Of a DNA stretch of 64,000 bases, positions 41,866 to 42,423 are shown in pieces. Location of the stretch: positions 62,001 to 126,000 of the forward strand of contig BQUP01000004.1 in the NCBI GenBank assembly GCA_022835595.1. Reading direction: 5' to 3'. This stretch comes from Cystobasidium ongulense (lineage: Eukaryota > Basidiomycota > Cystobasidiomycetes > Cystobasidiales > Cystobasidiaceae). The notes under the pieces are model-generated. The model searched no databases, was not told where the DNA came from, and worked only from the letters and a program-made list of their open reading frames with translations. How positions within the stretch are numbered: the first letter of the stretch is position 1; every line of letters begins with the position of its first letter. Both the position numbers and the translations under genes were made by a program.

Positions 41866-41999
41866 GCGTGAATGGTTCAACGGTGTTAGTCGACATTCAA
41901 TCATCATTCACCACAGAGCTTCATCTGACAAATAATGCCTTCTCTAGAGAATGGGTCGTTGCCATCGACTCGACCAGGGTTCGACTCCCTGTTCACGCA
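41866..41999 (+). tRNA. tRNA-Gly (anticodon GCC) interrupted in the D-loop by a GT-AG segment
   Basis: Two exons are proposed: 41866-41884 (19 nt) and 41948-41999 (52 nt), separated by 63 nt. Joined, they form a 71-nt cloverleaf: acceptor GCGTGAA/TTCACGC with all 7 pairs, discriminator A, D-stem GTTC/GAAT with loop AACGGTA, anticodon stem GGTCG/CGACT with loop TTGCCAT (U33, anticodon GCC, A37), 4-nt variable loop CGAC, T-stem CAGGG/CCCTG with loop TTCGACT. Box A (TGGTTCAACGG) and box B (GGTTCGACTCC) are intact on either side of the interruption. A T4 run at about 42033 could terminate Pol III. The usual fungal tRNA intron position after base 37 is uninterrupted. Without removal of the 63 nt, no D-arm can form. 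It could alternatively be a disrupted, non-functional copy. Confidence 0.75.
41885..41947 (+). other. Spliceosomal-type intron candidate inside tRNA-Gly
   Basis: The 63-nt segment starts GTTAGT and ends TTCTCTAG. It contains CATCTGACA, matching the CTGAC branch motif seen in protein-gene introns of this window, with the presumptive branch A about 20 nt from the acceptor. GTTAGT is also the donor of intron 1 of the RRM gene. The length is typical for this genome. There is no T4 run that would stop Pol III. Its excision exactly restores D-loop bases GGT-A and the D-stem. Confidence 0.65.
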
Positions 42000-42423
42000 A
42001 TACAAATCTGATCTGCAAAGACCAGCTTCTCCTTTTGGTGGATGTGACCTTGAGTGCACATCTCTTTTTGGCCCACACGACCAGCTTGTGCAGTTCTTTT
42101 GACTCTGTCACAACCTGACATAGTGCAAGTTTTTCCACCCTTGTACTGTGATCTTGTAGCTCCCCTAAATTACCGGAAAGTTTAATGGGCTTGGCATAGC
42201 AACAGTACAGACCTTACTTTCTTGAGTATAGTCCAGATCATTACGAGCGGCTCATCTCAGTCATGCGCACACCGTCTCTTCCATTTTCACTACCGTACTC
42301 GGTCAACACTTGGCCTTTCAATCCTGGCCTTTGCTTTTTCGATCACGAAATTGTCGGCTAGTCTTGAGGCATCGGAATACACGGTAATTTTGGTTGCTAT
42401 AGGACCATACCCACAATATCGCC
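42000..42423. other. Intergenic region
   Basis: This 424-bp stretch holds the tRNA terminator region (T4 at about 42033-42036) and the promoter of the SHB17-like gene. Nothing else is recognised. Confidence 0.45.

Follow-up and report, generated by a model that had tools for sequence, protein, structure and literature searches.

A tRNA-Gly(GCC) gene in the 64,000-nt stretch of genomic DNA analysed here (the window) is interrupted in its D-loop by a 63-nt GT-AG segment, and segments of the same kind were found in further tRNA genes of the genome. The signals they carry make it very probable that RNA polymerase III (Pol III) precursors of tRNA-Gly(GCC) and of at least 17 other tRNA genes are spliced by the spliceosome. 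It is also quite likely that the spliceosome is obligatory on Pol III transcripts for about 40% of the tRNA genes found, with two splicing systems acting on 10 of the 18 affected precursors, and that the same holds for U6 snRNA. This fraction takes in every gene found for Cys, Phe, Tyr, Asn, Ile and elongator Met, which were met in a non-exhaustive survey solely as interrupted genes.

The tRNA-Gly(GCC) gene of the window

The 5' exon (41866..41884, plus strand, 19 nt) comprises the acceptor 5' strand, T8, the D-stem 5' strand and most of the D-loop, with an uninterrupted box A (TGGTTCAACGGT). The 3' exon (41948..41999, plus strand, 52 nt) holds the end of the D-loop, the D-stem 3' strand, the anticodon arm with the loop TTGCCAT, the T-arm, the acceptor 3' strand and A73, and includes box B (GGTTCGACTCC). 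Between them lies the intron (41885..41947, plus strand, 63 nt), inserted between nucleotides 6 and 7 of the 7-nt D-loop. The GTTAGT start and the CTGAC about 20 nt before the end, described in an earlier note on this DNA, are both present; CTGAC (41925..41929, plus strand) is a putative branch motif judged by its sequence, with 19 nt between the branch A and the end of the intron, which reads CTCTAG. T runs in the intron never exceed two. The first downstream T4, a possible Pol III terminator, follows 33 nt past the gene in both Gly copies (42033..42036, plus strand, in the window).

The joined exons form a 71-nt tRNA whose acceptor stem has seven pairs, the D-stem four (one of them G-U) and the T-stem five; the anticodon stem includes one G-U pair. 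ARAGORN names this product tRNA-Gly(GCC) of 71 nt, so that the earlier description of pieces of 19 and 52 nt forming a perfect tRNA-Gly(GCC) once 63 nt are removed was exact. Without introns ARAGORN found no tRNA across the window, and with 37/38 introns permitted it returned a spurious tRNA-Pyl from the unspliced Gly stretch. Rfam gave a match of only 19.4 bits at the locus, under the cut-off of 29, and the three sub-threshold Rfam matches there included no intron family.

A search of the genome (19.77 Mb, 19 contigs) with the joined Gly sequence returned two loci, both interrupted, and found no intact Gly(GCC) gene. The many intact Gly-GCC genes that the earlier note had named as refuting evidence thus did not turn up. 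The second gene (C4:127982-128033, opposite strand) lies 24 kb from the window copy. The two are identical at 71/71 exon and 62/63 intron positions, and at 33/40 positions of the flanks (40 nt taken on each side).

When every deletion of 49–77 nt was scanned, none gave a better cloverleaf than the annotated one. However, 16 of the 1581 products were tied, two of which admit GT-AG, because a junction in the D-loop is loosely constrained; the junction is therefore not fixed by the Gly(GCC) gene alone. Chance, which had been argued against from the restored D-loop and stem of this gene, is indeed excluded as the origin of the split tRNA, by the second copy and 16 further interrupted tRNA genes.

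tRNA genes in the genome

Candidate loci were collected with the box-B pattern GGTTCRANYCC (79 sites, all retrieved, 78 distinct) and with an Rfam tRNA search (24 matches at E ≤ 0.001, 32 at E ≤ 10; 63 of 554 first-look candidates scored). Three further box-B types gave 214, 126 and 149 sites in their plain form and, with one base added on each side, 34 (AG..CT), 31 (CG..CG) and 47 (TG..CA); from the extended sites, 63 were retrieved in which the added base was paired and which were not already in the set. Acceptor, D-, anticodon and T-arms were read by hand. This survey, which is non-exhaustive, yielded 43 clear tRNA genes. Excluded from it were a Leu/Ser-like inverted pair (L039/L040), L093 and L100/L101, and, as truncated or incomplete, L056, L072 and L099.

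Inverted pairs of tRNA or tRNA-like sequences 2–3 kb apart were seen at C3:1826675/1829169, C4:1303576/1306601, C6:780047/782310 and C9:330820/333621, L072 being the truncated second copy in one of the inverted pairs; the Gly genes form another such pair (C4:103948/128033), 24 kb apart. They may be inverted duplications or the ends of elements.

Among the 43 genes, 18, representing 16 anticodons, contain altogether 22 non-canonical introns of 57–66 nt. The genome-wide check for other GT-AG insertions in tRNA genes thus showed the phenomenon to be general, with at least 17 genes besides the one in the window. D-loop introns are present in both Gly-GCC genes, in Leu-TAG and Ser-AGA (both at 14/15), in Leu-TAA (after G19) and in Arg-TCT (L025; C2:2726705-2726771, minus strand). 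Other single introns lie at 7/8 in Ala-TGC, 10/11 in Arg-CCT, 22/23 in elongator Met, 24/25 in Cys, 25/26 in Phe, 26/27 in Gln-TTG and Asn, and 28/29 in Lys-TTT. Two introns each occur in Leu-AAG (D-loop and 24/25), Tyr-GTA (14/15 and 28/29) and both Ile-AAT genes (28/29 and variable loop). Where bases are repeated at a junction, the GT-AG placement was picked among the equivalent ones. Positions 7 to 29 hold 20 of the 22 introns, and none is at 37/38. An additional 37/38 intron of 11–24 nt is found in 10 of the 18 genes, so that Leu-AAG and Tyr carry three introns each.

The remaining 25 genes have no intron or a 37/38 intron only: Lys-CTT, Asp, Glu-CTC and Ala-AGC (two each), iMet, Val-TAC, Val-CAC, Thr-CGT, Thr-AGT, Leu-CAA, Leu-CAG, Arg-ACG, Glu-TTC, Gly-TCC, Gly-CCC, Gln-CTG, Pro-TGG, Pro-CGG, Ala-CGC, Ser-CGA and His. 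Six of them (L023, L035, L090, L095, L134 and L157) were named by hand; ARAGORN puts their intron elsewhere and reads another anticodon. By the hand readings of this survey, no intact gene was met for any of the 16 affected anticodons.

Sequence signals of the introns

GT-AG ends, which with rare GC-AG ends mark U2-type spliceosomal introns, are found in 21 of the 22 introns, and the 5' splice site is mostly GTNNGN. The one exception, Arg-TCT, fits GA-AG: removal of its intron (GAAAGT...GCAG) leaves a normal D-loop, with which GT-AG ends cannot be reconciled. An alternative GT-AG deletion also obtains an ARAGORN call, but by our reading the GG of the D-loop is lost. This intron may be a functional GA-AG intron.

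All 22 introns contain CTNAY 15–24 nt upstream of the 3' end, as compared to 3.7 expected; none of 5000 shuffles reached 22, and with paralogues dropped the count is 19/19. Lengths are narrowly distributed (61.8 ± 2.3 nt), and the similarity of the introns to each other is weak (mean z 1.1; z > 3 in 20 of 224 pairs).

An introner-like repeat family was rejected as the source of the Gly intron, the one intron used as a DNA query, which matched only the two Gly genes in the host genome. The same query gave one match among viral contigs and two among bacterial and archaeal genome contigs, and in none of these does the tRNA continue. Group I and group II introns have a ribozyme core and are much longer than 66 nt; the length of 57–66 nt rejects them here, and no Rfam family reached its cut-off in the window.

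Junctions and recovery of tRNAs

ARAGORN called a tRNA with the expected anticodon from each of the 18 spliced products. From the unspliced genes, with an intron permitted at 37/38, it obtained nothing in 11 of 18 cases and a wrong anticodon in seven; in one of the seven the amino acid was correct.

The junctions were examined by scoring the cloverleaf quality of all deletions that differ from the annotated length by at most 14 nt, ignoring the end dinucleotides and with the remaining introns of each gene removed as annotated. The annotated product was best or tied best for 18 of the 22 introns. Alternative products, one or two in each case, outscored it for the first intron of Leu-AAG, the Ala-TGC intron and the variable-loop introns of the two Ile genes. 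Junctions in loops gave many ties (up to 122). A single best product was obtained for seven introns (Lys, Phe, Gln, the second of Tyr, Asn and the first of each Ile gene), which correspond to six independent loci since two are Ile paralogues. All seven admit GT-AG, as compared to 0.3–0.9% of products overall.

In a rescue test on 144 box-B sites, of which 17 were called unspliced and 127 were left, GT..AG deletions of 54–69 nt restored a tRNA at 13 of the 127, and four control classes of end dinucleotides at 1, 4, 6 and 6. The control rescues all fell on the same true tRNA loci save one (L050); outside true tRNA loci there were no GT-AG rescues and one by the controls. The 13 include an incomplete Asp copy (L056), a locus named Ser that reads by hand as Arg-CCT (L014), and L025, for which the deletion used differs from the annotated GA-AG one. 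Genes with two non-canonical introns cannot be rescued by a single deletion. The deletion scan, the rescue test and the count of branch motifs together rule out chance split tRNAs.

Introns of U6 snRNA and of protein-coding genes

The best U6 match in the genome scored 37.3 bits, under the cut-off of 44 (four others had E > 2), and corresponds to a split gene (L165; C1, ~2353058-2353147 together with sequence upstream of the matched part, reverse strand) with at least three GT-AG introns. Its layout is AAAAT, an intron of 64 nt, TGGAACAATACAG, an intron of 64 nt, AGAAG, an intron of 60 nt and ATTAGCATGGCCCCTGCACAAGGATGACAC. One intron lies within the ACAGAGA box, and a T8 run follows downstream. 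By the rule applied, the third intron lacks a YTNAY motif. A fourth intron is possible after GATGACAC.

Close to the second Gly copy lies a HIT-domain gene with six introns of 50–71 nt, one of them with TTTT; their removal restores the reading frame, and the product matches Pfam HIT at 78.8 bits. The gene for the Pol III subunit RPC34 in the window (48409 to about 50900, plus strand) has several introns, four modelled at 60–75 nt and a fifth of 87 nt in a poorly modelled first part. The length class of the tRNA introns thus matches the protein-gene introns of this genome. A start with GTTAG is found in 10 of the 22 tRNA introns and 3/3 U6 introns, as compared to 3 of 34 protein-type introns of the window, a motif-selected and noisy set (reversed sequence gives 10 at the same score; unfiltered sets give 77 forward and 61 reversed); P is 0.003, or 0.01 with paralogues dropped (8/19). 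The likeness to protein-gene introns claimed in the earlier note consequently stands for length, branch motif and AG end, but not for the GTTAG start, which is commoner in the tRNA introns.

Endonuclease or spliceosome

Two routes had been envisaged, removal by the spliceosome and cleavage by the tRNA endonuclease at a novel site. In the latter, the tRNA splicing endonuclease would act at ectopic sites by relaxed recognition of a bulge-helix-bulge (BHB) and the GT-AG ends would be incidental. Precedents exist, as the accessible parts of the literature describe ectopic introns in the D-arm and elsewhere in tRNAs of red algae, nucleomorphs and archaea (PMC3978253, PMC4090602, PMC9602550), and in Gly(GCC) the D-stem (4 bp) adjoins the junction at a distance that suits an outer helix, two of four central pairs being present. 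However, an outer exon helix of 5 bp is present in 10/10 canonical introns, whereas one of at least 4 bp is found in only 2 of the 22, the Gly pair. A full 4-bp central helix, which in a BHB stands between 3-nt bulges at the two junctions, occurs in 1/22 (Cys) and at random in 1.6%; this criterion is weak by itself, as only 2/10 canonical introns have the full helix. BHB processing was rejected on this lack of a central-helix excess, scored for the strict form. Nor does the endonuclease give any reason for GT-AG in 21/22 and CTNAY in 22/22. We therefore regard this explanation as very unlikely. The signals, the lack of a BHB excess and the split U6 gene favour the spliceosome.

Promoters, terminators and the polymerase

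Splicing of the U2 type usually goes together with Pol II transcription. This coupling speaks for a further alternative, in which the tRNAs would derive from Pol II transcripts spliced by the ordinary mRNA-type pathway, as does the splitting of box A by an intron in five genes (Leu-TAG, Ser-AGA, Tyr, Arg-CCT and Arg-TCT). Against it, in three of the five the intron 5' end looks as if it partly rebuilds the split box A (Ser-AGA, TGGCCGAGTGAG; Leu-TAG, TGGCCGAGTTTG; Tyr, TAGCTCAGTAAG), and runs of T4–T8 lie 0–33 nt downstream of all 18 affected genes, the introns themselves being free of T4. TTTT is found in 0/22 tRNA introns as compared to 6.9 expected on shuffling (P 0.00015; with paralogues dropped 0/19, 6.2 expected, P 0.0001); the contrast with the protein-type introns, where 8 of the 34 contain it, is modest (Fisher 0.017; 0.04 for the 19). 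The avoidance of T4 is weakened as an argument for Pol III because Pro-CGG (L094, C3:2196695-2196777) has a T5 run in its canonical 37/38 intron, so that T5 may be no strict Pol III terminator here; TTTT also occurs inside three of the tRNA bodies. Taken together, we consider an origin from Pol II transcripts highly improbable.

TTTTGC was seen downstream of several tRNA genes (e.g. L020, L021, L026, L061 and L063) and TCATCAA-like motifs shortly upstream of some. In this lineage they may serve as terminator and start signals for Pol III.

Copies of the interrupted genes

The two Ile(AAT) copies have identical exons (74/74), while their flanks agree at only 11/40 and 17/40 positions. The first intron is identical at 46/63 positions and the other at 63/65, and the divergence of the first spares the 5' splice site, CTTAC and AG.

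Identity of exons despite a diverged intron argues against the interrupted genes being dead pseudogenes or assembly errors next to functional intact copies. Such copies might hide in a partial survey, with 43 clear genes, 63 of 554 Rfam candidates scored, and genes for Trp, Val-AAC and some Ser, Thr, Pro and Arg tRNAs unlocated. Likewise, of the six hand-read anticodons with which ARAGORN disagrees, three would fall among those affected, as it reads L090 as Ala(TGC), L134 as Ser(AGA) and L157 as Ile(AAT). Intact genes would, however, be expected high in the Rfam ranking, where none was read for the 16 anticodons, and the mature Gly query met interrupted genes only. With all 18 spliced products called as proper tRNAs, this explanation can scarcely be true.

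Proposed processing and its implications

Spliceosomal removal of the introns from Pol III transcripts would proceed as follows. From the internal promoter, made up of box A and box B, Pol III would transcribe one precursor. The spliceosome would then excise the 57–66-nt GT-AG intron, recognizing a mostly GTNNGN start, CTNAY and AG, presumably before or during folding of the tRNA. Since several introns split stems, the cloverleaf needed by the endonuclease and by RNases P and Z can form only after their removal. Ordinary tRNA processing would come next, with the tRNA endonuclease taking out the 37/38 introns in 10 of the 18 genes.

If this is true, there is a further class of tRNA intron, removed by the spliceosome, and the splicing of Pol III transcripts is no mere curiosity of U6. 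On this view the machinery that splices mRNA would also be needed for making the tools of translation, and if many tRNAs need the spliceosome, translation capacity would be directly tied to splicing. Gene finders that permit introns at 37/38 alone would hide such genes; ARAGORN, given the unspliced sequences, had 0/18 right. Several questions become accessible in culturable yeasts, namely how the spliceosome can work on RNA from Pol III when the Pol II tail is lacking, by which route structured RNAs acquire introns and why 20 of 22 fall at positions 7–29, and in which order two splicing systems work on one precursor.

Comparison with known systems

In a literature search conducted mostly without subscription journals, no publication that describes nuclear tRNA genes with spliceosomal introns was found. 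Two reviews on the introns and genes of tRNAs, in their accessible parts, assign the introns of nuclear tRNAs to the tRNA endonuclease and contain no word starting with 'spliceosom' (PMC4090602, PMC4033280); those of a third paper, which deals with types of BHB, contain one (PMC3978253). Insertions in the D-arm, in the anticodon stem and at other positions, several per gene, are described in the accessible parts of work on Cyanidioschyzon merolae, the Guillardia theta nucleomorph and crenarchaea (PMC3978253, PMC4090602, PMC9602550). In Guillardia, as far as these sources could be consulted, many tRNA introns form no defined BHB (PMC3978253), and their length of 3–24 nt (PMC4090602) is far below the 57–66 nt found here. 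The present introns differ from these ectopic introns in having spliceosomal signals and no BHB excess, and in occurring in a fungus.

Canonical introns at 37/38, one nucleotide past the anticodon and cut by the Sen endonuclease, share with the present ones their location in nuclear tRNA genes, and 10 of the 18 genes contain both kinds. The present introns differ from them in position, in their length of 57–66 nt, in their GT-AG ends and in the branch motif.

The protein encoded by RPC34 in the window is 70% identical to that of Cystobasidium minutum, the best match with an organism name, and 90% identical to another protein. By this likeness the host groups with the Cystobasidiomycetes. Tani, Ohshima and colleagues reportedly described snRNA introns in Rhodosporidium dacryoidum, which we take to be Sakaguchia dacryoidea, and in Rhodotorula hasegawae, which is Erythrobasidium hasegawianum. 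In the taxonomy, S. dacryoidea, E. hasegawianum and C. minutum all belong to the class Cystobasidiomycetes, so the host would share its class with the yeasts said to carry snRNA introns. The closest parallel in kind is with the U6 introns of fungi, which likewise have GT-AG ends and a length of about 60 nt and lie in a small structured RNA made by Pol III, and of which the host's own U6 gene has at least three. The U6 gene of Schizosaccharomyces pombe, too, contains an intron. Here, unlike there, the RNA is a tRNA, 18 of 43 genes are affected, none with more than two introns of this kind, and canonical introns are present besides in 10 of them.
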